This document shows positions 9,128 through 38,351 of a DNA stretch of 64,000 bases, one piece after another (the first letter of the stretch is position 1; each line of letters opens with the position of its first letter). Position numbers and translations under genes: made by a program. The notes beneath the pieces are model-generated. The model worked only from the letters and a program-made list of their open reading frames with translations, was not told the DNA's origin and searched no databases. The stretch spans positions 62,001-126,000 of the forward strand of contig JAJDUK010000105.1 in NCBI GenBank assembly GCA_022826665.1, in the 5' to 3' direction. Origin of the DNA: Alphaproteobacteria bacterium. Lineage in GTDB: Bacteria; Pseudomonadota; Alphaproteobacteria; UBA828.

Positions 9128-10156
9128 GTGCGGGTCGACGTCTTCGATTTCGACCTTCCGCGCGAGGCGATCGCGACGCGCCCCGCGCGTCCGCGCGATT
9201 CCGCCCGCCTTCTGGACCTGACCGCCGGCCTCGCTCACCGCAGCATCGCAGACCTCCCGGCCCTGCTGCGGCCGGGCGACATGATGGTCTTCAACGACAC
9301 GCGGGTGATCCCGGCGCGCCTTGCGGGCATGAGGGGCGAGGCGCGGGTCGAGCTCACCCTGCACCGGCGCTTGGGCGACGACCGCTGGTTGGCGTTCGCC
9401 AAGCCCGCGCGGCGGCTCCGGCCGGGCGACACGGTGCGCTTCGCTGAAGAGTTCTCGGCTGCGGTCGAAGCGCGGGACGGACCAGAGGTGAGCTTGGTCT
9501 TCGACCGAGGCGGGGCGGCGCTTGCCGAGACGCTGCAACGCCACGGCGCCATGCCGCTGCCGCCCTATCTCCGCCGCCCCGCAGACGTGCGCGACCGCGA
9601 TGACTACCAGACCGTGTTCGCGCGGTGCGAGGGCGCCGTCGCCGCGCCGACGGCGGGCCTGCATTTCACCGAGCGCCTGCTGCAGGCCATCGATGCGCGC
9701 GGCATCGCGAGGCGTTTCGTCACCCTTCACGTCGGTGCCGGCACGTTTCTACCGGTCTCGGTCGAGGACACCGCCGATCACCTGCTGCACAGCGAGGCCT
9801 GCGTGCTCACGCCCGACACGGCCGCCGCCATCAACCGCTGCCGCGCGGCTGGCGGGCGCATCGTCGCGGTGGGCACCACCGTCGTGCGACTGTTGGAGAG
9901 CGCGGCCCAGCCCAACGGCACCGTCGAGGCGTTCACCGGCGAAGTCGACCTCTTCATCGAGCCGGGCTATCGCTTCAAGGTCGTCGACCTGATGCTGACC
10001 AACTTCCACTTGCCGCGCTCCACTCTCTTCATGCTGGTCTGCGCCTTCGCCGGCACCGAGCGAATGACGGCAGCCTACGCGGAGGCGCTCGCGGCGGGGT
10101 ATCGCTTTTACTCCTACGGCGACGCCTGCCTGCTCACGCGCGGGGAGACAGCGTGA
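9128..10156 (+). CDS. queA: S-adenosylmethionine:tRNA ribosyltransferase-isomerase
   Basis: QueA transfers and isomerises the ribosyl group of SAM onto preQ1-modified tRNA, forming epoxyqueuosine. The start is GTG at 9128 ([20 protein letters not shown]). Family motifs include [33 protein letters not shown] and [19 protein letters not shown]. At 342 residues it is full length. It follows coaD by 24 bases and its TGA overlaps the GTG of tgt, so the queuosine genes form one transcription unit. A peptidyl-prolyl isomerase gene often found between coaD and queA in this class is absent here. Confidence 0.96.
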
Positions 10157-11271
10157 GCCTCGGCTTCACCGTCGAGGCGACCGACGGCCGTGCCCGGCTC
10201 GGCCGGCTGGAGACGGCACACGGGCCCGTACACACGCCTGCCTTCATGCCGGTGGGGACCCAGGCGGCGGTCAAGGGGCTCACGGTCGATACGGTGCGTG
10301 CGAGCGGGGCCGAGATCGTTCTCGGCAACACCTATCACCTGATGATCCGCCCCGGCGCAGAGCGTATCGCCCGCCTTGGCGGCCTGCACGAATTCATGAA
10401 CTGGCCGGGGCCCATCCTTACTGATTCGGGCGGCTTCCAGGTGATGTCGCTCGCCCAGCTCCGCACCGTGCAGGAGGACGGCGTGGTGTTCCGCGCACAC
10501 ACCGACGGCTCCCGCCATCATCTGACTCCGGCGGGCGCCGTGAAAATACAGCACGCTCTGGACAGCGATATCACCATGGTGCTGGACGAGTGCACGCCCT
10601 ATCCGGCGAGCGAGGACGAAGCTGCTGAGTCGATGCGCCGCTCCATGCGCTGGGCCGCGCGCTGCAAGGAGGCGTTCGTGCAGAGGCCAGGCTACGGGCT
10701 CTTCGGCATCGTGCAGGGCAGCGTCTTCCCGGCACTGCGGACGGAATCGGCGGCGGCGCTGACGGAGATCGGCTTCGACGGCTACGCCGTGGGCGGGCTC
10801 GCGGTGGGCGAAGGGCAGGCCCAAATGCTGGCGGTGCTCGACGGGCTCGAGGGCGCGTTGCCGGCGGAGCGGCCGCGCTACCTGATGGGAGTGGGCACGC
10901 CGGATGACATCGTGAAGGCGGTCTGCCGCGGGATCGATATGTTCGACTGCGTGCTGCCCACCCGCTCGGGTCGTACCGCGCGCGCCTACACCGCGAGCGG
11001 CACCCTCAACATGCGGAACGCCCGCCACGCCGAGGACTCGTCGCCGGTCGATGCCGCTTGCGACTGCCCGACTTGCGCGGATTACAGCCGGGCCTACGTC
11101 CACCACCTGTTCCGCACCGGCGAAATGCTCGGCCCCATCCTGCTGAGCCAGCACAACCTCTACGTCTATCAGCGGCTGATGGCCGACCTGCGCGCCGCGA
11201 TCGGTGAGGGTCGCCTCGATGTCTTCGCAGCGGCGCAGGGAGGAGACGGGGACGCCGAGGGAGACGACTGA
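10153..11271 (+). CDS. tgt: queuine tRNA-ribosyltransferase
   Basis: Tgt exchanges guanine-34 of the anticodon for preQ1 in tRNAs with GUN anticodons. I chose the GTG at 10153, which overlaps the queA stop in a GTGA and gives the family-typical start [18 protein letters not shown]; the frame is open upstream, but only as antisense-like sequence. The protein is 372 residues. The nucleophile aspartate is in [12 protein letters not shown] and the second conserved aspartate region is [14 protein letters not shown]. The zinc site is [16 protein letters not shown]. It is the last gene of the ssb-to-tgt run and converges on the enoyl-CoA hydratase 9 bases away. Confidence 0.97.
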
Positions 11272-11280
11272 CCGGAGAGG

Positions 11281-12042
11281 TCAGTCGCCGAAGCTCTTGA
11301 CTCGCTCGGCGGTCTCGGGGTCGAGGAAGCGCCGCACGGTCGCCTCGGTCTCCAGCGCCAACGCGCCCTCGATATCGAAGCCGCCCGCCCGGTTGAGTAC
11401 CCGCTTGAGCTCGCACACCGCTCCTTGAGGCAGGGCGGCGATGCGCGCGGCCGTCTCGTGCGCCGTCTCGAACACCTGATCGTCCGGCACCACGCGCCAG
11501 GCGAGGCCCATCTCGTGCGCTTCCGCGGCGCTGAAGGTTTCGCCGAGCAGCAGCAGTTCGCGGGTCTTCGCCAGCCCCACGATGCGCGGCAGGATCGCCG
11601 TCACGCCGCCGGTCGGGAACATGCCCCACTTGATCTCGGGGAAGAAACATTTGGTGCCTTCGCCGAAGACGGCGAGATCGCAGTTGATCGCCCATTCCAG
11701 CCCGCCGCCCACCGCCCAGCCATGAATGGCGCCGACCACCACCTTGTCGCCCAGAACCAAGCGGCGCGAAACCGCCTGGATCGCCTCGATGAAGGCCCGC
11801 GTCTCCGCCTCGCCGGCGGTCTGGTTCTCGATGTCCTTGAGGTCATCGCCGGAGCAGAAGGCACGCCCTGCGCCGCGCAGGACCAGCGCGCCCACCCCAT
11901 CGTCGGCAAGCACGTCGTCCAGTGCCGCGCAGAGATCGGTGAGCAGCGTGGCGTTGAGCGCGTTGAGCCGCTCCGGCCGGTTGAGCGTGAGTGTGGCGAC
12001 GCCCGCCGTCACGCCGGTGAGGACGGTACCCGCCATCTTCAA
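11281..12042 (-). CDS. enoyl-CoA hydratase/isomerase family protein
   Basis: This crotonase-fold protein of 253 residues should act on an acyl-CoA thioester. The oxyanion-hole region GRAFCSGDDLKDI and the IHGWAVGGGLEWA segment are clear. Both catalytic glutamates of true hydratases appear aligned, one in GGGLEWA and one in FFPEIKWG, so hydratase activity is plausible. Its ATG overlaps the stop of the CoA ligase upstream (4-base overlap), so the two are one operon. The pair probably activates and then processes a carboxylic acid; the substrate cannot be read from sequence. Confidence 0.9.
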   Translation of the reverse strand: MKMAGTVLTGVTAGVATLTLNRPERLNALNATLLTDLCAALDDVLADDGVGALVLRGAGRAFCSGDDLKDIENQTAGEAETRAFIEAIQAVSRRLVLGDKVVVGAIHGWAVGGGLEWAINCDLAVFGEGTKCFFPEIKWGMFPTGGVTAILPRIVGLAKTRELLLLGETFSAAEAHEMGLAWRVVPDDQVFETAHETAARIAALPQGAVCELKRVLNRAGGFDIEGALALETEATVRRFLDPETAERVKSFGD

Positions 12043-22370: not shown

Positions 22371-23582
22371 ATGTACGACGCAATCGTTGTGGGGGCGCGG
22401 TGTGCCGGCGCCTCTCTTGCGATGCTTCTCTCCCGCAAGGGCTACCGCGTCTTGCTCGTCGATCGGGCAACCTTTCCCAGCGACCACACCATGTCGACGC
22501 ATCTGGTCTGGCAGAACGGAACGAACCGTCTGCGGAAATGGGGTCTGCTCGACACGGTCGCCGCCTCGAACTGCCCGCCGATGTCTTCCTTCTTCATCGA
22601 CTTCGGGGATTTGCGGCTCGACGGCGAACCGACGCCGGCGGACGGTCAGAAATACGCGTTCTGTCCCAGACGCTTCCTGCTCGACAAGTTCTTGGTCGAT
22701 GCCGCCGCGGCGGCCGGCACCGAGGTGCGGGAGGGCATCTTCGTCCGGGAGCTCGAAGGCGACGGCGACCGTGTGACCGGAATCTCCGGAACCGACAAGA
22801 ACGGCGCCACCGTTCGAGAGACCGCCCGCATCGTCGTCGGCGCGGACGGCATGAATTCGCTGGTGGCGCGCGCGGTTCAGGCACAGGAATACAACGCGAA
22901 ACCACGGCTGCAGAGGACTTACTTCAGCTACTGGAGCGACGTGCCGTCCCATGCCGTGGAGATCTACGTCGGGGAATGGCGGGGGGCTTACGCGTTCCCC
23001 ACCAACGACGGCCTGACGGTGGTCGGCGCGAACTGGACCGCGCGAGACGCTCGCGACGTTAAAGCCGACATCGAGACGAACTACCTCGAAACGTTGGAAG
23101 CCTGGACGCCGTCGCTCGCCGAACGGGTGCGCGATGGCACGCGCGAGGATCGCTGGCTCGGCGGCTCCATTCCGAGCTTCCTCCGCAAGCCCTATGGATC
23201 TGGCTGGGCGCTGGTGGGCGATGCCGGAGTTACCATGGACCCGTGCACGGCGGAAGGCATCACCAACGCTCTGCGCGATGCCGACTTCTTGGCCGATGCC
23301 CTCGACGAAGGTTTCTCCGGCCTGCGACCGATGGATGAAGCGCTTGCCCAGTACGAGCAACGACGCAACGCGGCGATCGTGCCGATCTACGAGCTCACCT
23401 GCGAATTGGCGTCCTTCGCGCCGCTGCCGCCCGACAGGCGACAGCTCCTGGAAGCCCTTATCGACAACCAGCCGGACACCAATCGCTTCCTGGGCTTGAT
23501 CGCCCAGACCGTGTCCATCCCCGAGTTTTTCGCCGATGAGAATGTACAAAGAATTCTGTCCACCGTATCGAATGTGCACTGA
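22371..23582 (+). CDS. FAD-dependent oxidoreductase (PHBH / geranylgeranyl-reductase type)
   Basis: A 403-residue flavoprotein of the aromatic hydroxylase superfamily. The FAD-binding start is IVVGARCAGASLAMLLSRKG, a GARCAG variant of GxGxxG. The middle motif is VVGADGMNSLVARAV, and WALVGDAGVTMDPCTAEG holds the second FAD contact (GD motif). Such enzymes hydroxylate, halogenate or reduce small molecules or protein-tethered acyl groups. It lies about 3 kb before the polyketide synthase on the same strand, with a nucleobase permease between, so membership of the polyketide pathway is possible but unproved. The C-terminus has no extra domain. Confidence 0.85.
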   Translation: MYDAIVVGARCAGASLAMLLSRKGYRVLLVDRATFPSDHTMSTHLVWQNGTNRLRKWGLLDTVAASNCPPMSSFFIDFGDLRLDGEPTPADGQKYAFCPRRFLLDKFLVDAAAAAGTEVREGIFVRELEGDGDRVTGISGTDKNGATVRETARIVVGADGMNSLVARAVQAQEYNAKPRLQRTYFSYWSDVPSHAVEIYVGEWRGAYAFPTNDGLTVVGANWTARDARDVKADIETNYLETLEAWTPSLAERVRDGTREDRWLGGSIPSFLRKPYGSGWALVGDAGVTMDPCTAEGITNALRDADFLADALDEGFSGLRPMDEALAQYEQRRNAAIVPIYELTCELASFAPLPPDRRQLLEALIDNQPDTNRFLGLIAQTVSIPEFFADENVQRILSTVSNVH

Positions 23583-23741: not shown

Positions 23742-25520
23742 ATGAGCACTGCCGCAACCGGCGGCCTCAAAGGTATCCGCTACCAGCCTGACGAGAGGCC
23801 GCCGCCGGCGCTCGCCTTTGGCCTCGGCGCTCAGATCGCCGTGCTCACCATCGCCGGCATCATCCTGGTGCCCACCATCGTGATGCGTGCCGCCGGCGCG
23901 AGCGAGGACTATCTCTCGTGGGCGGTGTTCGGCACGGTCGCGATCTGCGGCCTGACCACGGCGCTGCAATCGATCCGTACCGGGCGGATCGGCTCAGGCC
24001 ACGTGCTCATCATGGGGGCCTCCGGGGCCTTCATCGCTGTCTGCATCAACGCGATTGCGGCCGGTGGCCCGGCCTTGCTAGCCACGCTGGTCATCATCTC
24101 CTCCCTCGTCCCGCTCCTGATTTCCGTCCGCCTCGCGCTCTTCCAGCGGATCCTGACGCCGACGGTCTCGGGCACCGTGATCATGCTGATCCCCGTCACG
24201 GTGATGCCGGCCGTCTTCAAGCTCCTGGGGGATGTACCGGACGAGACCCCCGCCCTGGCGGCGCCGTTGAGCGCGCTTGCGGTGGTGCTCGTTCTGGCAG
24301 CCATCGCGTTGAAGGCGTCGGGCGCGCTCCGCCTCTGGGCACCGGTCATCGGCGTCGTCGCCGGCACGAGCGTCGCCGCCGCATTCGGCCTCTATGACGC
24401 GGACCGCGTGGTCGATGCGCCCTGGGTCGGCGTGCCGGCGGGCGAATGGGCGGGCTTCGATGTCGAATTCGGGCCGTCGTTCTGGGCGCTACTTCCGGCC
24501 TTCCTCCTGGTGGCCGTGATCGCGACCATCCGCTCCATCAGCGGCGCCGTAGCGATCCAGCGGGTCTCGTGGCGGCGGCCGCGGGCCGTGGATTTTCGGG
24601 CAGTGCAAGGGGCGATCACCGTGGACGGGATCGGCAACGTGCTTTCCGGTCTCGTGGGCACGACGCCGAATACGGCCACCACGGTGGGTGCGTCGGTGAC
24701 CGAGCTCACCGGTGTGGGCGCGCGCAGCGTCGGCATCGCATGCGGGGCAGTCTTCTTCGCAGCGGCGTTCCTGCCCAAGCTGCTGGCCCTGGTGCTCGCA
24801 ATACCGGGGCCGGTGATCGCTGCCTACCTCGGGGTCCTGCTGGCGACGCTCTTCGTGATCGGCATGAGGATCGCCATCCAGGACGGCATCGACTACCGCA
24901 AGGGCCTGATCGTCGGCGTCTCGTTCTGGGTCGGGGTCGGCTTCCAGAACGACCTTGTGTATCCCGAGCACATCTCGGAATTCGCAGGCGGTCTCCTGCG
25001 CAACGGGGTCACGGCCGGCGGGGTCACGGCCATCCTGATGACCTTCTTCGTGGAGTTGACCAAACCCCGCCGCAGCCGCATGGAGGAGGCATTCGATCTC
25101 TCGGTCCTGCCGAAGATCAGGGATTTTCTCGGCGCCTTCGCGATCCGCAGCGGCTGGGACGCGGCAATGGCGACGCGGCTGGACGCCGTCTGCGAAGAGA
25201 CGCTGCTGACCCTGATCCGACATGAGGAAGAAGATGAGGAGAAACGGCAGCGCCGCCTGCGACTGGTGGCCTACAGGGAAGGCAATGGCGCGGTTCTCGA
25301 GTTCGTCGTCGCGTCGCGAGAGGACAATATCCAGGATCGCCTTTCGCTGCTCGGCGACGAGCCCGGTGAGGTCTCGGCCGAGCAGGAGGTCTCGCTCCGC
25401 CTGTTGCGCCGGCTCGCTTCCTCCGTCCGCCATCAGCAGTATCATGGCACCGACATCGTGACGATTCGCGTGGCAGCGGTGGTGGCCGGCGAAACAGGGG
25501 CGGCCGGCGAAAGGAATTGA
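23742..25520 (+). CDS. NCS2-family nucleobase permease with C-terminal ATPase-like tail
   Basis: The first about 435 residues are a nucleobase:cation symporter-2 (xanthine/uracil permease) core with many hydrophobic helices and the conserved-looking segments SGHVLIMGASGAFI, TPNTATTVGASVTELTGVGAR and VGVGFQNDLVYPE. The last about 150 residues are soluble. RLDAVCEETLLTLIRHEEED resembles the N-box helix of RsbW-type histidine-kinase-like ATPases, and RRLASSVRHQQYHGTDIVTIRV resembles the terminal strand-helix-strand of that fold. This fusion is an inference from pattern only. The protein should sit in the inner membrane and import purines or pyrimidines, perhaps with cytoplasmic regulation. It is upstream of the PKS, 105 bases away. 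Confidence 0.85.
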   Translation: MSTAATGGLKGIRYQPDERPPPALAFGLGAQIAVLTIAGIILVPTIVMRAAGASEDYLSWAVFGTVAICGLTTALQSIRTGRIGSGHVLIMGASGAFIAVCINAIAAGGPALLATLVIISSLVPLLISVRLALFQRILTPTVSGTVIMLIPVTVMPAVFKLLGDVPDETPALAAPLSALAVVLVLAAIALKASGALRLWAPVIGVVAGTSVAAAFGLYDADRVVDAPWVGVPAGEWAGFDVEFGPSFWALLPAFLLVAVIATIRSISGAVAIQRVSWRRPRAVDFRAVQGAITVDGIGNVLSGLVGTTPNTATTVGASVTELTGVGARSVGIACGAVFFAAAFLPKLLALVLAIPGPVIAAYLGVLLATLFVIGMRIAIQDGIDYRKGLIVGVSFWVGVGFQNDLVYPEHISEFAGGLLRNGVTAGGVTAILMTFFVELTKPRRSRMEEAFDLSVLPKIRDFLGAFAIRSGWDAAMATRLDAVCEETLLTLIRHEEEDEEKRQRRLRLVAYREGNGAVLEFVVASREDNIQDRLSLLGDEPGEVSAEQEVSLRLLRRLASSVRHQQYHGTDIVTIRVAAVVAGETGAAGERN

Positions 25521-25625: not shown

Positions 25626-28600
25626 ATGGCGGAGCGAGACAGGGCTTGCGGACGCGCGAGCGACGCGCCCGACTTAAACGACGAACGCGCGCCGGAAGTC
25701 TCCGGATCGAACGAACCAATAGCGATCGTCGGCATGGCGTGCCGGTTTCCCGGCGCCAACGGCATTTCCGCCTTCTGGCGTTTGCTTGAGGAGGGCGGGA
25801 ACGCCGTGCAGGAGGGCGTGCCGGGCTCCGGCATCGGGCGCATCGGCGCGCTCTTCCCCGACGATACGGGTCAGATCCAAGCCTGCCGCTTCGGCGCGTA
25901 TCTGGAAGAGCTCGAGCAGTTCGATGCCGCCTTTTTCCGTATTTCGCCGGTGGAAGCGCAACTGCTGGATCCCCAGCAACGGCTGATCCTGGAGACGAGC
26001 TGGCGGGCGCTCGAAGACGCGGGCATCGATCCCGAAGGGCTGAAGGATAGCCGCACCGGTGTCTATGCGGGGATCAGCAACAACGACTATCGGGGGCTGA
26101 TTCTGGCGGCCAGCGAGAACGCGGCGCCTGCCGAACCTGCTGCCAGTCTTTATGCGGTCACCGGCACCTCCCTCAACACGGCCATCGGCCGGGTTGCGTT
26201 CGCGCTCGGCCTCGGCGGGCCGGCGATGGCAGTGGACACCGCCTGCTCGTCCTCGCTGGTCGCAACGCATCAGGCCGTCTCTGGCCTGCAGCGGGGCGAC
26301 GCGGATCTCGCGCTCGCCGGCGGGGTGAACATCATTCTCTCGGGTCGGCTTCTGGAGTTTCGTGCCAACGCGGGGATGTTGGCGCCGGACGGCCAATGCA
26401 AGACCTTTGATGCCTCCGCCAACGGATATGTCAGGGGCGAAGGCTGCGGGATTCTGGTACTGAAGCGGCTCGCCGAGGCGGAGGCGGACGGTGACCGCAT
26501 CTGGGGGGTCATCCGGGGCACGGCACTGAACCAGGACGGCGCGAGCCAGGGTCTGACGGTTCCGAACGGGGCGGCGCAGGAACGGGTGATCCGGGCGGCG
26601 CTCAAGCGGGCTGGAGTCCGGTCATCGGATATCGACTATCTGGAGGCGCACGGGACCGGCACCGAGGTGGGCGACCCGATCGAGATCAATGCGACGGCGG
26701 CGGTCTACGGGCGCGGTCGGGACGCTGGCCGCCCGCTGCTGATCGGCTCGGTGAAAACCAACATCGGGCATCTGGAATCCGCGGCAGGGGTCGCGGGGCT
26801 GATCAAGACCGTGCTGGCGATGAATCGGCGGCTCATCCCCAAGCACCTCCATTTTCGCAACCCCAATCCGGAGATGGACTGGGAGCGGCTGCCATTGCAG
26901 GTGACGTCCGCCCCGACGTCGTGGCCCGCCCATGCAGACCGCGCGCCGCTGGCGGGTGTGAGCGGGTTCGGATGGTCCGGGACGAACGCCCACGTCGTGC
27001 TGGAGGGATATGCCGCGCCGGGCGGTGCCGCGACTGGCCTCGATGGGGGCGATTGGATTGCCAGCGCTCCGCGGCCGATCGCCGTTTCGCTGCCGGCGTC
27101 CGTCGTGCCTTCGCAATCGAAGGACGAGCTTACGCCGCGCGGTACGCGCCTGCTGCCGCTCTCCGGAAAGTCAGACGCGGCGCTTCGCGACATGGCAGGA
27201 CGCTATCTCGCGTGGCTCGACGAACGGGCGGACACGCCGTTGCTCGCCGACTTGGCGTGGACCGCCGCCACAGGCCGGAGCCACTTCGGCCACCGGGCAG
27301 GAGTGGTGTTCCAGGACGCGGAGTCACTGCGGGAGGGTTTGCGGACGATCGTCGAGACGGACGAGAGACCGGCATCGCGCAAGGCGGCGAAGGTCGCGTT
27401 TGCCTACACCGGACAGGCCAGCCAGTGGCCCGGCATGGGCGAGGCACTCTATGCGAGCGAGCCGGTGGTGCGCGCGGTGCTCGACCGCTGCGACCAGGTG
27501 CTCGCGGAGGACCGGGGCGGCGCCTCACTGCTGGACGTAATGTTCGGTAGGCCCGATGCGGCGGGCGAGCTGGACGACCCGCTGTGGAAGCAGCCCGCGA
27601 TCTATGCGCTGGAGTGCTCGCTCGCGGCTCTCTGGGAGAGAATCGGCATCCGGCCGGATGTGGTGCTCGGGCACAGCCTTGGGGAGATCGCGGCGGCGCA
27701 TACCGCCGGCGTCTTCAGCCTGGAGGAAGGCCTGCGCTTCGCAGCGGCCCGCGGGAGCCTGATCGGGGCGCTTCCCGGCGAAGGCGCGATGGCGGCTGTG
27801 TTCGCGCCGCCCTCCCGCGTGGCCGACGCCGTGGGAGAGCTGAACGCCGCCTCCGGCGGGCCGGGCCTGAGCGTCGCCGCGGACAACGGCGCCCACCAGG
27901 TGGTGAGCGGCCCGAAAGTTGATGTGGAGGCATTGCTCGCGCGCTTCGAGGCAGACGTGGTTCGCGTCGCACGGCTGCGCAGGAGCCCAGCCTACCACAG
28001 CGCCATGATCGAGCCGGCGCTGGGCGATCTGGAGGCCGAAATCTCGACGATCGCATTCCAGCCGCCGTCGCTCCCCTTCGTCAGCAACCTGACCGGCCGG
28101 GCGCTGGACGCGGGCGAGGCGCCGGACGCGGCGTACTGGCGGCGCCAGGCGCGCGAGCCGGTGGCTTTCCGCGCCTGCATCGAGACGCTGGCGGAGCTCG
28201 GCGTGGATGCCGTCATCGAGATCGGCCCCCATGCCGTGCTGGGGCCGATGACGACCATGGCGTGGCCGGAGACTGCCGGGACCGCACCGGCGGTTCTCTC
28301 GAGCTTGCAGCGTCCGTCAAAGGACGAGCCACAGCCGGCGTCGGGTTCCGGCGGCGGCTTCGTGGAGGCGGTTGCCGGCGCCTACGAGGCGGGGCTTCCG
28401 CTCCGCTTCGAAGGACTCTTCGCCGGTGAGTCGCGGAGCAAGATCGCGCTGCCGGGCTATCCGTTCCAGCGCGAGCGTTATTGGGTCGAGGCGCCCAAGC
28501 GGCGGCGGCAGTCAAGCGACCACCCGTTGCTCGGCAGCCGCCACGAGTCCGCGAGCGGGGAGGTCGCCTTCGACACGGAGGTCTTCCCCTCCGATCCGGC

Positions 28601-31600
28601 GTGGCTCGCCGACCATCGCGTCTTCGGCCGGCTGATCGCGCCGGGCGCGCTCTACGGCGCCATGGCAGCGTCGGCCACCCTCGCCGAGGGCAGCGACGCG
28701 GTGGTCGTCGAGGACTTCCAGATGCAGAGCGCGCTGGTCTTACCCGACGGGGATGCCGAGGACGGCACCGGCGACGCGGGCCGGCGTGTTCAGGTGCTGC
28801 TCGACGACGCCGAGGACGAGGCGGCTCGCCGGGTCCGCATCCTCAGCCGCGGCGACGCTGAGGACGGGTGGACGCAGCACGCGGAGGGTCGTATTTCGGC
28901 AAGCTCAGCTGGGCAGTCGCAAGCAGCCCCGCCGCTCGATATCGAGGGGCTGAAGGCCGCCCTCACGCCGGTGGACCTCGCGGCCTACTACCGCGCCAAG
29001 GCCGCGGTCGGGATCGATCTCGGCCCCTCCTTCCGCACGGTCGAGGGGCTATGGGCACGGCCGGGTGAGGCCGTCGCCGAGGTGGCGCTTCCGGCCGGTG
29101 TGGAGCGAAACCCGTTCGACGTGCACCCGCTCGTGCTCGACGGCTGCTTCCAAGTCTTCGGCGCGGCGCGCAACCCCGACGGTGGCGAGGAAGGGATCAC
29201 ATATCTGCCCTTCGCGTGGGAGCGGCTGTGGCTGGCTGGCGGCTTGCCGGAGCGCCTGTTCTGTCACGTGACTGTGAAGGAAGGCCGGCCTGGCGAGGAG
29301 GCGGACGCTGAGAGCGGCGGAGTGCCGGAGGTTCATGCCGCCGACCTTCGCCTCTACGACCAAGACGGGGCGCTGATCGGGGAGCTGACCGGCTTTACCG
29401 TGAAGCGGGCAACGCGGGCGGCGCTGCTCGAAGGCGTGGAAGGGATCGACGAGCTTCTCTACGAAGTCGTATGGCGCGACTGCGCCTTGCCGCCCGGCAT
29501 GCTGCCGGCGGACTTCCTGCCGAGGCCGTCGGCCGCGGCGTCCCGCTCGCAGCCCTTCTCCCGGTATCTGACCGATGAGGGAGTCGAGGTCGCGGACGAG
29601 ACCGACCTCCAAGGGGAAATGGGGCGGGCGTCGTGGTGCTATGCGCTCTCGGCGCTGGAAGCGCTCGGGTGGGAACGCACGGCAAGCGCGGTCGTAAAAC
29701 CGGAGGAGTTGCGCGAGCGCCTCGAGGTCCTGCCCGAGCACGCGCATCTGCTCCGCCGGATGCTCGAGATCCTGGCTCGTTCGGGCGTGTTGCAGGCGAA
29801 GGACGAAGGTTTTGTCGTAACGGTTGGAGCCGACGATCCGTTGCCGGACGAAATGCCGCGCGATTCCGAGGCGTTTCTGGCCGAGGTGACGGCGCGCTTC
29901 CCGCACGCGGCGAACGAGATCGGGCTGTTTCGGCGTTGCGCCGGTGCCCTGCCCGAGGTGTTGCGCGGCGATGAGGACCCGCTGTCGCTGCTGTTCGGCG
30001 ATGCAGAGCCGACGGCCGGCGATCTGTATCGGCTGGCGCCGGTCTGGCGGGCGGCGAACCGGATGATTGGCGAGGTGGTTCGCACGCTCGTGGACGACGT
30101 GCCGGACGGTCGACGGTTGCGCGTGCTCGAGGTGGGTGCCGGCATCGGCTCAGCGACCGAAACCATCCTGCCCGAGCTTCCGGCCGGACGGTTCGACCTC
30201 ATGTATACCGACATCTCCGCGGGCTTCTTTGCGGAGGCGGAGTCGCGCTTCGGCGGCGCCGAGGCGTCGATCGACTACCGGGTGCTGGATATCGAGAAGG
30301 ACCCGGTGGAGCAGGGCTTCGAGCCCCACGCATACGACATGGTCATCGCGGCCAACGTGCTGCACGCCACGAGCCATCTGGACGAGACGCTTGCCCACTG
30401 CCGGGCGCTCCTGGCGCCGTCGGGGTTGCTGGTGGCGCTGGAGAACCAGCGCGGCCGGGGCTGGATGGACCTGATCTTCGGCCAGCTGGACGGATGGTGG
30501 CGCTTCGCCGATCGCTACCGCCCGAACCACGCCCTCGCCGGACCCGACGTGTGGCGTCAGGCGCTGGCCGATGCAGGGTTCACGGAAGCCGAAGTTCTCG
30601 GCGTGGACCGGTCGGAGGCGGCCGGCCTGCCGGATCGAGGGGTGATCGTGGCGCAGGGCCCGGCGGAGATCGACCTGCCGGAAGGCGCCTGGATTCTGGC
30701 TGCCGACCGGGGTGGCGTGGCGGCGTCGCTGGCGGCGCAACTCGCGGCACAGAACCAGCGGGTGGTGCTAGCAGGCGGCGATCCGGAGGGCACGGGCGCG
30801 GTGGCGGAGCGCGACGCCGGGATCGTCGCAGTATCAGTCGAGATGGAGCGCCGCGAGTCCTGGCGATCGCTCGTCGAGGGCCTGCCCCCGGACGTGCCTT
30901 TGGCCGGGGCGGTGCACCTCGTCGCGCAGGACGGCCACGGAGCGGACGCGACGACCACAGACCTGGCGGCGGACGCGAAACGCGCGACGGCAAGCGCGCT
31001 CGCACTCGTGCAGGGCATCGCGGACGCGGACGCCGTGCCCGAGAAGGGCCTCTGGTTCGTCACCCGGGGTGCGCAGGTGCTGGAGCGGGAGCGAACCGGG
31101 CAGTTGGCCGGCGCCTCCCTTTGGGGCCTAGGCAAGGTGGTGGTGCGGGAGGCGCCCCAACTGCAATCCCGGATGCTCGATCTCGACCCCGAGGCAGCGG
31201 AGCCGCAGGCCATCCTCGCGGATGAGTTGCTGTTCCCGGATTCGGAGAACCACGTCGCGCACCGCCAGGGGCGCCGCCAGGTGGCCCGTCTGGTGCGGAC
31301 GGGTTCCGGCGCGGAGCGTCTTGCCCTGCCGGAGGAGGCGGACTGGGTGCTGGCACCGGACGAGGGAGGGGCGATCGAGACACTGCGGGTGCAGCCGCTG
31401 GCGGCGCGTGCCCTGGAACCGAAGGAGGTGCGCGTCGCGGTCGAAGCCTGCGGGCTCAACTTCCTCGATGTGTTCCGGGCCATGGGCCTGGTCGAGGAGG
31501 GGCTGCTCGGCGAGGAATTCTGTGGCCGGATTGTCGAAACCGGTTCGGACGTAACCTCCGTCACGGTGGGCGACCGCGTGGCCGGCTTCGCGTTCGGCAC

Positions 31601-34600
31601 CTTCGGGCCGGAGGCGGTGACGCGGGAGGAACTGGTCGCGCTTGCGCCACCGGACGTGTCGGCGACGGCGCTCGCCACCATCCCCTCGGTGTTCGTGACA
31701 TGCGCGCTGTCATACGAGCTTGCCGGGCTGAAGGCCGGGGACCGCGTGTTGATTCACGCCGGCGCGGGCGGAGTCGGCCTTGCGGCCATCCAGCTCGCGC
31801 AAGCTGCGGGCGCGGAGGTGTTCGCCACGGCGAGCGCGCCAAAGCAGGCTTACCTCCGCTCGCTCGGCGTCGACCACGTGTTCGACAGCCGCTCGACCGC
31901 GTTCGGCCAGGACATCCTCGACGCGACAGAAGGCGCCGGGGTCGACGTCGTGCTGAACAGCCTGACGGGCGAGGGCTTCATCGAAGCGAGCCTCGCCTGC
32001 CTCGCGCAGGGCGGCCGCTTCGTGGAGCTCGCCAGGCGGGATATCCTGAGCGAAGACGAGATGGCGGCACTGCGGCCGGATGTCGCCTATTCGATCCTCG
32101 ATCTCTACACCCTGAAACAGCAGGATCCCGCGCGTCCCGGTGCGGCCCTGAAAGAGGTGCTGGCGCGCATCGCTACGGGCGAGCTTGCGGCGCTCAGGCA
32201 CACTAGATGGCCGCTGGCCGAGACGAGCGCCGCGATGGGCTACATGCGCGCGGCGCGGCACATCGGCAAGATCGTGCTGACGACGTCTCCCCTCGGGGCG
32301 GGGCGGCTGCGGCAGGACCGGACCTACCTGGTGACCGGTGGCCTCGGGGGCATCGGCTGTGCGCTTGCCGAGTGGCTTGCCGAGCGCGGCGCGGGCACGG
32401 TCGTGCTGAACGGCCGGCGGGTACCGGACGCGGCTGCCGAAGAGGCGATCGAGGCGCTGCGCGACCGCGGGTTCAGCGTGGAGGTCGAGCTTGCGGACGT
32501 GACGGATCCGGCCGCGCTGGATGCCATGCTTGCACAGATGGATCGGGAGCTTCCGCCGCTCGCCGGGGTGATCCACAGCGTCGGCGTGCTGGCCGACGCC
32601 GCGCTCGGAAACCAGAGCTGGGAGAGCTTCGAGACCGTGCTTTGGCCGAAGATGCTCGGCGCATGGCACCTCCATCGCGCAACCGCCGATCGCGACCTCG
32701 ACCTCTTCGTCATCTTCTCGAGCGTGGCCGGCATCCTGGGCAATCCGGGCCAGGCCAATCACGCGGCGGCCAACGCGTTCCTCGATCAGCTCGCCGCCCA
32801 CCGGCGCGCCCTGGGGCTACCGGGGCAGGCCATCGCCTGGGGTGCGTGGTCGGGGCTCGGTGAGGCGGAAGAGCAGCGCGAGCGGATCGCTCAGCGGCGG
32901 GAGGCATCAGGAACGGGCTGGTTCACGCCGGAGCAGGGCTTCAAGGCGCTCGACCGTCTGCTGCGGCAGGACGCCGCTGCCGCTGCCGTGCTGACGGCGG
33001 ACTGGGCGGCGTTCGGCGAGGCCCTTGAGAGCCGCCCACCCCTGTTCGAGGATCTGCTCTCTGACGCGTCCGCGGACGACGAAGCCGCGGCCTCGTCGGA
33101 AGACCTGCTTGCACAGCTCGCCGCGACGCCCGCGGCGGGGCGCGAGGAGCTCTTGGTGTCCTTCCTGCAACAGGAGGTGCAGGCGGTGCTGCGGCTGCCG
33201 TCGGCGCCGGCGCCGACGGTCGGTTTCTTCGACCTCGGCATGGACTCGCTGATGGCGGTCGAGCTGCGGAACCGCCTGAACCGGGCGTTCTCCGGCGCTT
33301 ACGCTGCGCCTAACACGCTGGTGTTCGATTATCCGAATATTTCCGTTCTCGCTGGTCATCTGGTGGGTGAGCTTGGCGACGAGATCGCGGCCCCAGCCCC
33401 CGAGGCGACGACCGAACCGAGCCGGCAGGCGCCGGTGCAGCGCGAGGACGACGGCATCGCCATCGTGGGGATGGCCTGCCGCTTCCCCGGTGCGGCGGAC
33501 CTGGGATCCTTTTGGCGTCAACTCGAAGCGGGTCACGACGCGGTGACGGACGGGCGTCAGGATGGCGGGACCTGGACCGGTGTTGCTGGCGACCCGGCAG
33601 CCGACGACAGTCCCTGGAGGCAAGGCGGCTTCGTCGACGGGATCGACCGCTTCGACGCGCGCTTCTTCGGCATGACGCCGATCGGCGCACGCATGATGGA
33701 CCCGCAGCAGCGACTGCTTCTGGAAACCACCTGGCAGGCGCTCGAAGATGCGGGGATCGATCCGGACGGCCTGCGGGGCAGCCGCACCGGGGTCTACGCC
33801 GGGGTCTCCACCAGCGAGTACCGCGACCTGATGATGTTGGCCGGCAACGAGAACCTCAGCTATCTCGGTACCGCCAGCAGCACCGCAGTCGGAGGCGTCG
33901 CGTTCAAGCTGGGTCTCACGGGGCCGACAAATCCGGTGATGCTCAACTGCGCGGCGTCGCTGGTCACGGTGCAGCAGGCGGTCGCGGGCCTGCGGCAGGG
34001 CGAGGTGGACATGGCGCTGGTGGGCGGCGTGAGCGCCGTGCTTTCGCCCGGCCTGACCGTCGAGATGGCAGCGCTGGGAATGCTGTCACGGCACGGTCGT
34101 TGCAGGACCTTCGATGCCGCGGCGGATGGTTTCGTGCGGAGCGAGGGCTGCGGCATGGTCGTCCTAAAGCGGCTCGCCGAGGCGGAGGCCGACGGCGACC
34201 GAATTTGGGCGGTGATCCGCGGGGCGGCGGTCAACCAAAACGGGGCGAGCGCGGGACCGACAGTGCCGAACGGCCCGGCGCAGGAGCGGGTGATCGAGGA
34301 AGCGCTCTCGCAGGCGGGGGTCTTGCCGTCGGACGTCGACTATCTGGAGGCGCACGGGGCGGGTTCGGCGCTAGGCGATCCCATCGAGGTGAACGCGGCG
34401 GCGGCGGTCTATGGCCGGGAGCGGAGCCCTGACCGTCCGCTGCTGATCGGCTCGGTCAAGACCAACATCGGCCATCTGGAATCGGCGGCGGGCGTCGCCG
34501 GCCTGATCAAGGTCGTGCTGGCGATGCGGCACGGAACAATCCCGAAGAACCTGCACTTCCGGGACCCCAATCCGCACCTGGAGTGGGACCGACTGCCGGT

Positions 34601-35993
34601 GCTGGTGGTGTCGGAGACGGCGGACTGGCCGCATGCGCCCGGCCGGCCACCAAGGGCAGGCGTCAGTGCATTCGGGATTTCGGGCGTGAACGCGCACGTC
34701 GTGCTGGAGGGGTACGGGCCGACGAATGGCGCATCGGCCGGGACCGATGGCAATAGTTCCCATGCGGGCGCACCGCAGCGCGTCGCGGCGACATTGCCCG
34801 CGCCTGCCGCGAGTTTGCCGCCGTCCGAGGAAGCCTTCTCCGCGCGCAACACGCGGTTGCTGCCGCTCTCGGCCAAGTCTGGCGAAGCGCTCCGGGTGCT
34901 GGCGGGGCGATATCTCGCGTGGCTCGACGAGCACGCCGACGAGTTGGCTTCGGAGGGTGCCGCGTCTGACACCCTGCTCTCAGACATGGCGTGGACGGCC
35001 GCCGTCGGCCGCAGCCACTTCGGCCATCGGGCGGGCGTGGTGTTCCAGGACGCGGAATCGCTGCGACGGAGCCTCACCGCACAGGCGAATGCCGACGAGG
35101 GACTTGGTCCGAAGACGGCGACGAAGGTGGCATTCGCCTACACCGGCGAGACCGACGAGTGGGTCAGCATGGGGGGGGCGCTCTACGCGCGCGAGCCCGT
35201 GGTGCGCGCCGTGCTCAACCGTTGCGACGCCGTGCTTGGGGAGGATCGGGGGGTCTCGCTGCTCGATGCGATGTTCGGCGGTCCCGGCGCCGAGGGGGGG
35301 CTGAGCGATCCAGAGTGGGCGCGGCCCGCAACCTACGCTCTGGCGTGCGCGCTCAACGCACTGTGGGCGAGCGTCGGCATCCAGCCGAGCGTGGTGGCTG
35401 GGCAGGGCGCAGGCGAGATCGCGGCGGCACAGGCCGCCGGCGTGTTCAGTCTGGGGGACGGCTTGCGGCTAGCTGCGGCCGGGAGCGAAATTGAGGCGGC
35501 GCCGGAAGGCGTCGCACTGGCCGCACCGTCGGTTGGTCTGGTGAGCGGCCTCACCGGCCGCGTGATGGATCCGGATCAAGCACTGGATGGGGCGTACTGG
35601 CACCGCCAGGCGGCAGGCGCTCCACTCGCAATCGACGGCTGCGCCGAGACCCTGGCCGCTCTCGGCGTCGACGTCGTCATCGAGATCGGACGGGACTCCG
35701 TGCTGGCGCCGCTGTTGGCAGAGGCTTGGCCGAAGACAGAGGAGAACGCAGCGGCGCCAATGCTGTTGTCGAGCCAGCGAGAGTCGTCGGGTAGCGAAGA
35801 GACGGCGGCAGGACATGCCGACGGTGCCTTCGTGGAGGCGGTCGCCCAGGCCTACGAGGCGGGGCTCGGCGTGTCCTTCGCGGGGCTCTTCTCGGGCGAG
35901 ACACGGCGTCGTATCTCGCTGCCGGGCTATCCCTTCCAGCGCCGGCGCTACTGGCTATCGAAGCCTGGGGGGCACACCACCGTTTCGGATTGA
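25626..35993 (+). CDS. type I polyketide synthase KS-AT-DH-CMeT-ER-KR-ACP-KS-AT(degenerate)
   Basis: A 3455-residue modular PKS. Module 1: KS (about 29-460; Cys207 in DTACSSS, His342, His382), AT (592-875; Ser684 in GHSLGE, His791 in PAYHSAM), DH (966-1265; His997 in HRVFGRLIAP, Asp1172 in LDGCFQ), C-methyltransferase (about 1400-1680; VLEVGAGIGSATE), ER (1905-2220; GAGGVGLAAIQLA), KR (2233-2415; VTGGLGGIG) and ACP (2505-2580; Ser2541 in LGMDSL). The KR tyrosine position reads histidine (His2379, NHAAAN). Module 2: KS (about 2609-3030; Cys2775 in MLNCAAS, His2910, His2950), then an AT whose GHSLGE is GQGAGE (Gly3261) and which lacks about 90 residues including the histidine. No second ACP or thioesterase is encoded in cis. 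It should make a methylated, largely reduced acyl chain. Confidence 0.95.
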   Translation: MAERDRACGRASDAPDLNDERAPEVSGSNEPIAIVGMACRFPGANGISAFWRLLEEGGNAVQEGVPGSGIGRIGALFPDDTGQIQACRFGAYLEELEQFDAAFFRISPVEAQLLDPQQRLILETSWRALEDAGIDPEGLKDSRTGVYAGISNNDYRGLILAASENAAPAEPAASLYAVTGTSLNTAIGRVAFALGLGGPAMAVDTACSSSLVATHQAVSGLQRGDADLALAGGVNIILSGRLLEFRANAGMLAPDGQCKTFDASANGYVRGEGCGILVLKRLAEAEADGDRIWGVIRGTALNQDGASQGLTVPNGAAQERVIRAALKRAGVRSSDIDYLEAHGTGTEVGDPIEINATAAVYGRGRDAGRPLLIGSVKTNIGHLESAAGVAGLIKTVLAMNRRLIPKHLHFRNPNPEMDWERLPLQVTSAPTSWPAHADRAPLAGVSGFGWSGTNAHVVLEGYAAPGGAATGLDGGDWIASAPRPIAVSLPASVVPSQSKDELTPRGTRLLPLSGKSDAALRDMAGRYLAWLDERADTPLLADLAWTAATGRSHFGHRAGVVFQDAESLREGLRTIVETDERPASRKAAKVAFAYTGQASQWPGMGEALYASEPVVRAVLDRCDQVLAEDRGGASLLDVMFGRPDAAGELDDPLWKQPAIYALECSLAALWERIGIRPDVVLGHSLGEIAAAHTAGVFSLEEGLRFAAARGSLIGALPGEGAMAAVFAPPSRVADAVGELNAASGGPGLSVAADNGAHQVVSGPKVDVEALLARFEADVVRVARLRRSPAYHSAMIEPALGDLEAEISTIAFQPPSLPFVSNLTGRALDAGEAPDAAYWRRQAREPVAFRACIETLAELGVDAVIEIGPHAVLGPMTTMAWPETAGTAPAVLSSLQRPSKDEPQPASGSGGGFVEAVAGAYEAGLPLRFEGLFAGESRSKIALPGYPFQRERYWVEAPKRRRQSSDHPLLGSRHESASGEVAFDTEVFPSDPAWLADHRVFGRLIAPGALYGAMAASATLAEGSDAVVVEDFQMQSALVLPDGDAEDGTGDAGRRVQVLLDDAEDEAARRVRILSRGDAEDGWTQHAEGRISASSAGQSQAAPPLDIEGLKAALTPVDLAAYYRAKAAVGIDLGPSFRTVEGLWARPGEAVAEVALPAGVERNPFDVHPLVLDGCFQVFGAARNPDGGEEGITYLPFAWERLWLAGGLPERLFCHVTVKEGRPGEEADAESGGVPEVHAADLRLYDQDGALIGELTGFTVKRATRAALLEGVEGIDELLYEVVWRDCALPPGMLPADFLPRPSAAASRSQPFSRYLTDEGVEVADETDLQGEMGRASWCYALSALEALGWERTASAVVKPEELRERLEVLPEHAHLLRRMLEILARSGVLQAKDEGFVVTVGADDPLPDEMPRDSEAFLAEVTARFPHAANEIGLFRRCAGALPEVLRGDEDPLSLLFGDAEPTAGDLYRLAPVWRAANRMIGEVVRTLVDDVPDGRRLRVLEVGAGIGSATETILPELPAGRFDLMYTDISAGFFAEAESRFGGAEASIDYRVLDIEKDPVEQGFEPHAYDMVIAANVLHATSHLDETLAHCRALLAPSGLLVALENQRGRGWMDLIFGQLDGWWRFADRYRPNHALAGPDVWRQALADAGFTEAEVLGVDRSEAAGLPDRGVIVAQGPAEIDLPEGAWILAADRGGVAASLAAQLAAQNQRVVLAGGDPEGTGAVAERDAGIVAVSVEMERRESWRSLVEGLPPDVPLAGAVHLVAQDGHGADATTTDLAADAKRATASALALVQGIADADAVPEKGLWFVTRGAQVLERERTGQLAGASLWGLGKVVVREAPQLQSRMLDLDPEAAEPQAILADELLFPDSENHVAHRQGRRQVARLVRTGSGAERLALPEEADWVLAPDEGGAIETLRVQPLAARALEPKEVRVAVEACGLNFLDVFRAMGLVEEGLLGEEFCGRIVETGSDVTSVTVGDRVAGFAFGTFGPEAVTREELVALAPPDVSATALATIPSVFVTCALSYELAGLKAGDRVLIHAGAGGVGLAAIQLAQAAGAEVFATASAPKQAYLRSLGVDHVFDSRSTAFGQDILDATEGAGVDVVLNSLTGEGFIEASLACLAQGGRFVELARRDILSEDEMAALRPDVAYSILDLYTLKQQDPARPGAALKEVLARIATGELAALRHTRWPLAETSAAMGYMRAARHIGKIVLTTSPLGAGRLRQDRTYLVTGGLGGIGCALAEWLAERGAGTVVLNGRRVPDAAAEEAIEALRDRGFSVEVELADVTDPAALDAMLAQMDRELPPLAGVIHSVGVLADAALGNQSWESFETVLWPKMLGAWHLHRATADRDLDLFVIFSSVAGILGNPGQANHAAANAFLDQLAAHRRALGLPGQAIAWGAWSGLGEAEEQRERIAQRREASGTGWFTPEQGFKALDRLLRQDAAAAAVLTADWAAFGEALESRPPLFEDLLSDASADDEAAASSEDLLAQLAATPAAGREELLVSFLQQEVQAVLRLPSAPAPTVGFFDLGMDSLMAVELRNRLNRAFSGAYAAPNTLVFDYPNISVLAGHLVGELGDEIAAPAPEATTEPSRQAPVQREDDGIAIVGMACRFPGAADLGSFWRQLEAGHDAVTDGRQDGGTWTGVAGDPAADDSPWRQGGFVDGIDRFDARFFGMTPIGARMMDPQQRLLLETTWQALEDAGIDPDGLRGSRTGVYAGVSTSEYRDLMMLAGNENLSYLGTASSTAVGGVAFKLGLTGPTNPVMLNCAASLVTVQQAVAGLRQGEVDMALVGGVSAVLSPGLTVEMAALGMLSRHGRCRTFDAAADGFVRSEGCGMVVLKRLAEAEADGDRIWAVIRGAAVNQNGASAGPTVPNGPAQERVIEEALSQAGVLPSDVDYLEAHGAGSALGDPIEVNAAAAVYGRERSPDRPLLIGSVKTNIGHLESAAGVAGLIKVVLAMRHGTIPKNLHFRDPNPHLEWDRLPVLVVSETADWPHAPGRPPRAGVSAFGISGVNAHVVLEGYGPTNGASAGTDGNSSHAGAPQRVAATLPAPAASLPPSEEAFSARNTRLLPLSAKSGEALRVLAGRYLAWLDEHADELASEGAASDTLLSDMAWTAAVGRSHFGHRAGVVFQDAESLRRSLTAQANADEGLGPKTATKVAFAYTGETDEWVSMGGALYAREPVVRAVLNRCDAVLGEDRGVSLLDAMFGGPGAEGGLSDPEWARPATYALACALNALWASVGIQPSVVAGQGAGEIAAAQAAGVFSLGDGLRLAAAGSEIEAAPEGVALAAPSVGLVSGLTGRVMDPDQALDGAYWHRQAAGAPLAIDGCAETLAALGVDVVIEIGRDSVLAPLLAEAWPKTEENAAAPMLLSSQRESSGSEETAAGHADGAFVEAVAQAYEAGLGVSFAGLFSGETRRRISLPGYPFQRRRYWLSKPGGHTTVSD

Positions 35994-36035: not shown

Positions 36036-36935
36036 CTACGAGAGGCCGTGCCGCTCCAGGAATTCGCGGGTCACCGCAACGCACTCCGCGGGCTTCTCCA
36101 GTTGCAGGAAGTGCGTCGCCTCGGGGATGAAATCGTAGTCCATGGCCGAGACAATTCGCTGGTCGAGCGTCGGCAGATACGCATGCGGCAGGGTGGGGTC
36201 GGCACCGATGATCTTCGTGGGGCAGTCGAGCAGGTCGAGGTCCAGCAGCGGGAAGAAGCTCCGGGCGTAATCCATCATCTGCGCTTCGTATTCGCGGGGG
36301 CAGCGAAGCTCATAGCCCTCACCGCTCGCGGACCCTCGGAGCGTCGTCCGGGCCATGAGCTCATGTACGCCGGGAGCGGCCCGCTTGAAGGTCGGAAAGA
36401 TTCCCAAAATCTCGATAAAGTCTTCCCGTCTTTTGAAGTGCTGTCCCCGCCGCCGAATCAGGGCTGCCCCGCGCTCGGCAGCGTCGTGAAGCTCCGTCTG
36501 ACTCGCGCCGGGCCTGGTCAGGGGCGGGTCGAACAGGACCAACGCCGAATAGAGTTTGCTGAACGAGAGCAGCGTCACGACCGTGGTGAGCGAGTGAAAG
36601 ATGCCAACGGTCGGCTTGCTTCCATGGGTACGATCGATGGTCTCGAGAATGATGTCGTGATCGCGAATCATGGTCGGAACATTGTGATCCGTCTGGGCGC
36701 CGACGCTGTTCCAGCCGTGGTTCCTGAGGTCGTAGACCATCAGGTCGAAGTCGTCCGCGAGCAGAGACCAGAACGGATAGTAGAGATCGGCGGCGAGACC
36801 GCTGCCGTGGCTCAGGACGATTCTGAGGCCCGACGGATTGCCGTGCCGCCGCACCGTGGTGGTGGTATCGGCGTCAAGGCGAACATCCAGCGTCGAAAGG
36901 GGCTGGGGTATCTCCCAAACCGCTTCTGTCGTCAT
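36036..36935 (-). CDS. alpha/beta hydrolase, possible thioesterase of the polyketide locus
   Basis: A 299-residue alpha/beta-hydrolase fold protein. The oxyanion loop is LSHGSGLAADLY and the nucleophile elbow is GIFHSLTTV (Ser115), which departs from the usual GxSxG at both glycines around HSL. A candidate acid is near Asp246 (GADPTLPH) and the histidine is His275 (PEATHFLQLEKP). There is no signal peptide, so it is cytoplasmic. It is encoded convergently with the PKS, 42 bases from its stop, and downstream of the discrete ACP on the same strand. Since the PKS has no thioesterase, chain release or editing is a reasonable inferred role. A general esterase cannot be excluded. Confidence 0.82.
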   Translation of the reverse strand: MTTEAVWEIPQPLSTLDVRLDADTTTTVRRHGNPSGLRIVLSHGSGLAADLYYPFWSLLADDFDLMVYDLRNHGWNSVGAQTDHNVPTMIRDHDIILETIDRTHGSKPTVGIFHSLTTVVTLLSFSKLYSALVLFDPPLTRPGASQTELHDAAERGAALIRRRGQHFKRREDFIEILGIFPTFKRAAPGVHELMARTTLRGSASGEGYELRCPREYEAQMMDYARSFFPLLDLDLLDCPTKIIGADPTLPHAYLPTLDQRIVSAMDYDFIPEATHFLQLEKPAECVAVTREFLERHGLS

Positions 36936-37077: not shown

Positions 37078-37308
37078 TCACCCGGCGCGGGCATCGATAT
37101 ACGTCACAAGCTCCCGTAACGTATTGAACTGCAAACAGTCCTCCGCAACCATGTTCAGGCTGAACTCCTGATTGACCGCCTTGTAAAACGCGACCGCATC
37201 CACCGAAGAGACCCCGGCGTCACTGAACGGCCGATCGAAATCCGGATCGTGATCCAGGTCGAAGCTGTCGTTGATGATTGTCCGCAGGCGGGTTTCCGTT
37301 GACGACAT
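37078..37308 (-). CDS. discrete acyl carrier protein
   Basis: A small acidic four-helix protein of 76 residues. The phosphopantetheine serine lies in FSDAGVSSVDAVAF, where the usual DSL reads SSV (Ser35 from the chosen Met). The C-terminal LRELVTYID helix is typical. Two in-frame ATGs exist, 37314 and 37308; the second leaves nine bases after a GGAG ribosome binding site, the first only three, so I prefer 37308. It sits between the hydrolase and the phosphopantetheinyl transferase on the minus strand. Because PKS module 2 ends without a carrier domain, this protein may serve it in trans; that is an inference. Confidence 0.85.
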   Translation of the reverse strand: MSSTETRLRTIINDSFDLDHDPDFDRPFSDAGVSSVDAVAFYKAVNQEFSLNMVAEDCLQFNTLRELVTYIDARAG

Positions 37309-37314
37309 GCGCAT

Positions 37315-37625: not shown

Positions 37626-38351
37626 CTACGAGCCGCTGCTCTGAGACGGTAGTCGGTAGGCGAGCGCGGCGGCGAAGCGGGGCTCTCCCAAATCCAGGAG
37701 CCGCCATTCGCTCTCCGGCGCGTGCGGGAATCGAAACGAACCCGTCCGGTCGCCCCGCTGCATCGCCTCCGGGATTTCGAATCGCGATGGGCTTAGAGAA
37801 AACCCGGCACCGATCGCCTTGATCAGCGCTTCCTTCATGCTCCACAGGCGATAGAAGAGATGGACCTTTTCCCGACCCGCAGCGGCAGCCAGCAATTGCC
37901 GCTCCGCCGGGCCGTAGACCAGGCTGCCGATGCCTTCCAGGTCGCGCTGCGCGACACGCTCCTCCACATCGACGCCGATCCCGTCATGCGCGGCGATCAC
38001 GATCAAGCCGAGCCTGCCGCTGTGGCTGACGTTGAAGCCGATTTCCACACACGCGCCATTGATCCTGGCGAAGGGTTTGCCGTGTTCGCCGTAGCCGAAG
38101 GAGAGCGCGCGGTCTTCGCAGCCCAACCGATCGCAGAGACTGACGCGGAGCGCAGCGCGGCAGAGGGCGTACTCCCGCCGGGCGCGCTCCGACAGGAAGC
38201 GGCGCCAGCGTGCCTCCTCGTCATCGTCTAGCAGCGAAAGGGCGCGGGCCTCGCGCTCCGCATCCGGCGAGAGGTCCACGTGGAGGATCGTCGCGCCGTC
38301 GACCTCGCGCCAGGGGCTCCACCAGGGGTTGGTCGATTTCGTCATCGCCAA
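37626..38351 (-). CDS. 4'-phosphopantetheinyl transferase, Sfp type
   Basis: A 241-residue Sfp/Gsp-type enzyme that moves phosphopantetheine from CoA to carrier-protein serines. The family signatures are GIGVDVEE (magnesium-binding Asp and Glu) and WSMKEALIKAIGAGF (second acidic ligand and Lys). IGFNVSHSGRLGLI upstream contributes the conserved NxSHS-like contact. It is adjacent to the discrete ACP and the PKS, so it very likely activates ACP Ser2541 of the PKS and the free ACP. It is transcribed leftwards, 70 bases downstream of the leuD stop region. Confidence 0.93.
   Translation of the reverse strand: MAMTKSTNPWWSPWREVDGATILHVDLSPDAEREARALSLLDDDEEARWRRFLSERARREYALCRAALRVSLCDRLGCEDRALSFGYGEHGKPFARINGACVEIGFNVSHSGRLGLIVIAAHDGIGVDVEERVAQRDLEGIGSLVYGPAERQLLAAAAGREKVHLFYRLWSMKEALIKAIGAGFSLSPSRFEIPEAMQRGDRTGSFRFPHAPESEWRLLDLGEPRFAAALAYRLPSQSSGS

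Follow-up and report, generated by a model that had tools for sequence, protein, structure and literature searches.

The polyketide synthase (PKS) encoded in a 64,000-nucleotide stretch of an alphaproteobacterial genome, hereafter called the window, ends in a ketosynthase–acyltransferase half-module (KS2-AT2), and a discrete acyl carrier protein (ACP) is encoded nearby on the opposite strand. This ACP is probably the missing carrier of the terminal half-module and acts in trans, most likely in a single condensation with malonyl that is followed by release of the product by a hydrolase. The preliminary description of this DNA had proposed that the ACP completes module 2 in trans. The association of the ACP with the PKS has become strongly supported, while its service to KS2 is a step that we infer. 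The features that are needed to follow the argument are as follows:

22371–23582 (+): geranylgeranyl-reductase-like FAD oxidoreductase, upstream of the permease, as in relative L066; possible cluster member
23742–25520 (+): NCS2-type permease (PF00860) with a C-terminal extension, adjoining the PKS in several relatives; possible SupE counterpart
25626–35993 (+): PKS, 3,455 aa, KS1-AT1-DH-MT-ER-KR-ACP1-KS2-AT2 by Pfam domains, ending at the post-AT linker
33162–33362 (+): ACP1 of module 1 (PF00550, motif GMDSL), the sole integral carrier of the PKS
33450–34706 (+): KS2, with Cys2775, His2910, His2950 and Lys2945 kept
35124–35990 (+): AT2° (non-catalytic AT2) and post-AT linker
36036–36935 (−): alpha/beta hydrolase (PF12697), 299 aa, with a Ser115-Asp246-His275 set as putative triad; candidate thioesterase for product release
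37078–37314 (−): discrete ACP, 78 aa (PF00550), likely start at 37308
37626–38351 (−): Sfp-type 4'-phosphopantetheinyl transferase (PPTase, PF01648), 311 bp beyond the discrete ACP

Anatomy of the terminal half-module

The PKS has only one PF00550 match, at residues 2513–2579 (ACP1), and none in module 2 (KS2-AT2). The absence of a carrier from module 2 was thus noted correctly in the preliminary description, and it recurs in every relative. The relatives are alike in architecture and length, and all of those examined end at the post-AT linker with no carrier after AT2. An assembly break that hides the carrier of module 2 was rejected as an explanation because the PKS of the relatives ends at the same place. 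The half-module is about 60% identical to KS1-AT1. The KS2 copies form one clade (98/98), and the half-module therefore arose once, most simply through a KS-AT duplication inside the PKS. Such a single ancient duplication would have left the PKS with a C-terminal half-module that stops at the very point at which a carrier domain would start.

The two halves of this structure differ in the state of their active sites. In KS2, the catalytic cysteine, both histidines and the lysine are invariant columns in all copies examined, and the residues around the nucleophile are altered (LNCAAS or similar, against TACSSS). In AT2, the GHSxGE motif has become GQGAGE, and residue 3261 is glycine instead of serine. 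The nucleophile position is never serine in any copy (it is glycine, or aspartate in L064), and the YHS-type histidine motif is absent from all of them. An intact Cys-His-His triad joined to a non-catalytic AT (KS-AT°) is therefore found in all copies examined. AT1, in comparison, keeps both its nucleophilic serine and its histidine motif. Since AT2 lacks nucleophile and histidine, the extender for module 2 must be loaded by another enzyme; judged by its residues, module 2 is expected to be unable to do so itself. For this reason, the earlier label of a split cis-AT module is misleading. The dead AT2 had been overlooked there, as had the hydrolase that lies between the ACP and the PKS. A fold model of KS2-AT2 was too poor to use, with a pLDDT of about 30 in the KS half.

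The discrete carrier and its association with the PKS

The small gene opposite the PKS encodes a genuine member of the carrier family, as had been proposed, with a PF00550 score of 39.2 bits against a cut-off of 20.8. It lies 1,085 bp from the PKS stop (35993), close to the 1.1 kb given before. Position 37308 is the second in-frame ATG, and the start that it gives (MSSTE) is kept across relatives. The atypical motif, previously given as VSSVDAV, reads GVSSVDAV. It contains the attachment residue Ser37 (codon 37206–37204), which is invariant in 17 aligned relatives. The usual aspartate of the DSL motif is absent from all family members aligned, and serine, threonine or alanine is found in its place. 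The predicted model has an ordinary carrier fold (pLDDT 83), and among solved structures, type II carriers come closest to it. The gene is under purifying selection, with dN/dS values of 0.07–0.24 in most pairs.

Four carriers were found by a PF00550 search of the whole genome: the fatty-acid carrier AcpP, ACP1 of the PKS, the discrete ACP and one in a second, SwfA-type PKS. In the tree, the discrete ACP forms its own clade (98/97), apart from AcpP and ACP1. There is moderate support for a position nearer to assembly-line carriers, and the deep forks are uncertain because the alignment has only 85 columns. As for AcpXL, the lipid A carrier, no model match was reported for the discrete ACP, and the tree was built without identified AcpXL sequences. 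No relatives of the discrete ACP were found in viral contigs.

The distribution of the two genes is strikingly congruent. The KS2-AT2 half was searched for in 385 alphaproteobacterial genomes and is present in 8 of them. A profile search of the same-class set of 385 recovered members of the ACP family, all scoring at least 125 bits, in the same 8 genomes and in no others; the next match outside the family scored 44 bits, and the rest were at or below about 40. The genomes come from uncultured bacteria, apparently sponge symbionts, and belong to 4 genera, each of a different family; counted as independent evidence, they are a handful of lineages and not eight. In a wider-phylum sample, only the genome of the window itself matched. 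The genes are also linked: in each complete locus, the ACP gene adjoins that of the PKS and is encoded on the other strand. It stands directly after the KS2-AT2 end, at a gap of about 150–270 bp, in L059, L064, L069 and L071; the hydrolase sits between the two in the window and most other loci; and in L060 and L062 the ACP is found at the other end, before KS1. Taken as comparative sequence evidence, this strongly supports the view that the ACP belongs with the PKS and is not a chance neighbour. Coevolution with KS2 or AT2 in particular was also considered and was not retained, since the correlation of distances is not specific: those of the ACP track AT2 (0.58) and KS2 (0.42) no better than they track other PKS domains.

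Several genomes carry a second ACP copy. L014, L015 and L016 (around 9223–11300) are second, degenerate copies of the cluster with KS1 relics and an intact ACP. The second-copy ACPs have dN/dS values of 0.10–0.23, against 0.7–1.4 for the adjacent KS1 relics. The hydrolase at these copies is intact in L014 and decayed in L015 and L016. An ACP that is independent of the PKS, which these loci with no PKS nearby might suggest, was rejected because a PKS is present elsewhere in those genomes and the KS1 relics are decayed.

The conserved cluster comprises the PKS, the ACP, the hydrolase, the PPTase and sometimes the permease. The steadiest neighbour of the ACP is the hydrolase and not the PPTase. 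A close hydrolase match is present in 12 of the 13 PKS genomes (the exception, G004, is 93% complete), every close and intact copy that was located adjoins an ACP copy, and the putative Ser-Asp-His triad is kept in the intact copies. No solved relative of the hydrolase was found by sequence. The PPTase that the preliminary description placed beside the ACP is indeed there, but its proximity is not telling: there is one copy in 12 of the 13 PKS genomes, and it is often unlinked from the PKS. A Rieske ring-hydroxylating oxygenase follows the ACP in L059 (14279–15541), L063 (15192–16484) and L071 (15165–16430, assigned by its sequence likeness to L059), and none is found beside the PKS in the window.

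Possible roles of the discrete carrier

KS2 is intact, AT2 is dead, and the half-module has no carrier in cis while a dedicated one is available in trans. Together, these features are most simply read as a system in which KS2 uses malonyl on the discrete ACP to extend the chain. In such a pathway, module 1 would make a reduced chain, probably iteratively and probably with methyl branches introduced through the MT domain. AT2, with its catalysis lost, would survive as a scaffold, and KS2, which keeps the condensing triad, would receive the chain from ACP1. The discrete ACP would be loaded with malonyl by AT1 or FabD, KS2 would most likely condense the chain with it once, and the neighbouring alpha/beta hydrolase would free the product. 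More tentatively, the locus may be a hybrid of the cis-AT and trans-AT types in which the fused terminal KS-AT° recruits the discrete ACP and carries out a last condensation that is left unreduced, and the hydrolase then releases a beta-keto acid or a methyl ketone derived from it.

A comparable arrangement is found in mupirocin biosynthesis. In MmpF, a KS with the Cys-His-His triad is joined to an AT that is truncated and dead, and the protein condenses in vitro onto malonyl carried by MacpA or MacpB, which are discrete ACPs (PMC10098928). The intact KS triad fused to a non-catalytic AT is shared with KS2-AT°, which is known here from its sequence. The two systems also differ. MmpF is a free didomain of a trans-AT pathway, whereas KS2-AT° forms the C-terminal part of a protein that begins with a complete cis-AT module. 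KS2-AT° also retains most of the AT region, of which only a remnant is left in MmpF.

Instead of condensing, KS2 might act as a transacylase that hands the finished acyl chain over from ACP1, with the discrete ACP serving as an off-loading shuttle from which the hydrolase or lipid-making acyltransferases would take it. This is rather unlikely, although the altered context of the KS2 cysteine could reflect transacylation rather than condensation, the dead AT2 leaves no loader in cis, and the constant pairing of the hydrolase with an ACP copy is what release from that ACP would predict. Both catalytic histidines and the lysine used in decarboxylative condensation are nevertheless invariant in KS2, whereas known non-elongating KS domains usually lose the histidine of the HGTGT motif. 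A role at the opposite end of the PKS appears improbable. There, the discrete ACP would supply KS1 with a starter acyl group, and KS2-AT° would be a structural element or a chain-length gate. The location of the ACP at the KS1 end in L060 and L062 fits this role, as do the lack of a loading module ahead of KS1 (by Pfam domains) and the precedent of MacpD, a discrete starter carrier in the mupirocin pathway (PMC10098928). Against it, the ACP has no recurrent neighbour in the loci of the relatives that would make a starter or act as an adenylating enzyme, and the presence of a full KS2 triad without a carrier would be left unexplained.

The preliminary description had also allowed for an extender carrier, which is now disfavoured. 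Discrete ACPs carry unusual extenders in some cis-AT PKS clusters, as in the methoxymalonyl-ACP systems, and the ACP could hold a special extender for AT1 in a similar manner. No extender-building genes, however, recur in the conserved cluster or beside the ACP in the relatives' loci, which makes this role very improbable. Least credible of all is a housekeeping carrier of fatty acid or lipid synthesis that is located here by accident. The discrete ACP shares with AcpP the fold common to all ACPs and the phosphopantetheine serine, and there is a weak similarity to the AcpP model (26.9 bits), which stays below the cut-off of 66. The genome has a separate AcpP, and the discrete ACP differs from it in its separate clade, in the lack of the DSL aspartate and in its presence only with the PKS. 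A housekeeping role was thus rejected by tree and distribution, and the clustering with fatty-acid carriers that had been considered earlier was not found.

Probable sponge-symbiont context and mosaic structure of the PKS

A second PKS in the same genome offers a clue to the lifestyle of the host. Locus L115:6550–13638 (−) on contig C74 of genome G000 holds an open frame of 2,363 codons with the motifs HATGT and QCALVEL, and a large reading frame follows it in the place of swfB. Both motifs are signatures of swfA, and swf (sponge widespread FAS) has been reported to be specific to sponge symbionts (PMC3908369). Provided that swfA is indeed confined to sponge symbionts, the host very likely lives in symbiosis with a sponge. 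The swf PKS is, like that of the window, reducing, but it is single-module: SwfA is KS-AT-DH-ER-KR-ACP with HATGT and no second KS, whereas the window PKS has an MT domain, HGTGT in KS1 and the terminal KS2-AT°.

A second group for comparison is the sup (sponge symbiont ubiquitous) PKSs. These have been reported as small type I PKSs specific to sponge symbionts, and fatty acids with mid-chain methyl branches have been proposed as their products (PMC4245539). They occur in several phyla, among them Proteobacteria (PMC9426513). The permease SupE (ABE03914) belongs to one published sup cluster (PMC3908369). Apart from the extra KS-AT°, the window PKS (KS-AT-DH-MT-ER-KR-ACP) is a reducing PKS suited to methyl-branched fatty acids. 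The swfA-type gene, the reducing architecture with MT and the permease together indicate that it probably belongs to the sup family. SupA is called mono-modular in the sup literature examined, to which the founding paper (Fieseler 2007) does not belong, and neither a terminal KS-AT° nor a discrete ACP is mentioned there.

Sup-type PKS genes are reportedly the predominant type in PKS screens of sponge metagenomes, and their products have only been guessed from domain order. If the dead-AT terminal module, the discrete ACP and the hydrolase belong to these systems, both the predicted product and the minimal set of genes for expression would change, and heterologous expression without the ACP or the hydrolase could fail. 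A final unreduced condensation, if true, would mean that the predicted product of this abundant group of sponge-symbiont PKSs is not a plain branched fatty acid. The locus would also be a natural case of a cis-AT module that lost its AT and took up a carrier in trans.

Two further observations concern the PKS genes themselves. Genome G061 has two KS2-AT2 ends on different contigs (L021 and L061), one of them with an in-frame TAG. When the domains of L060, L069 and L070 were compared with those of L063 and L066, the PKS appeared as a mosaic: in the window, MT, ER, KR and KS2 are more similar to those of other families than to those of some members of its own genus, whereas AT1, DH, AT2, the hydrolase and the ACP conform to the genus. 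This pattern suggests that domains have been exchanged between lineages.
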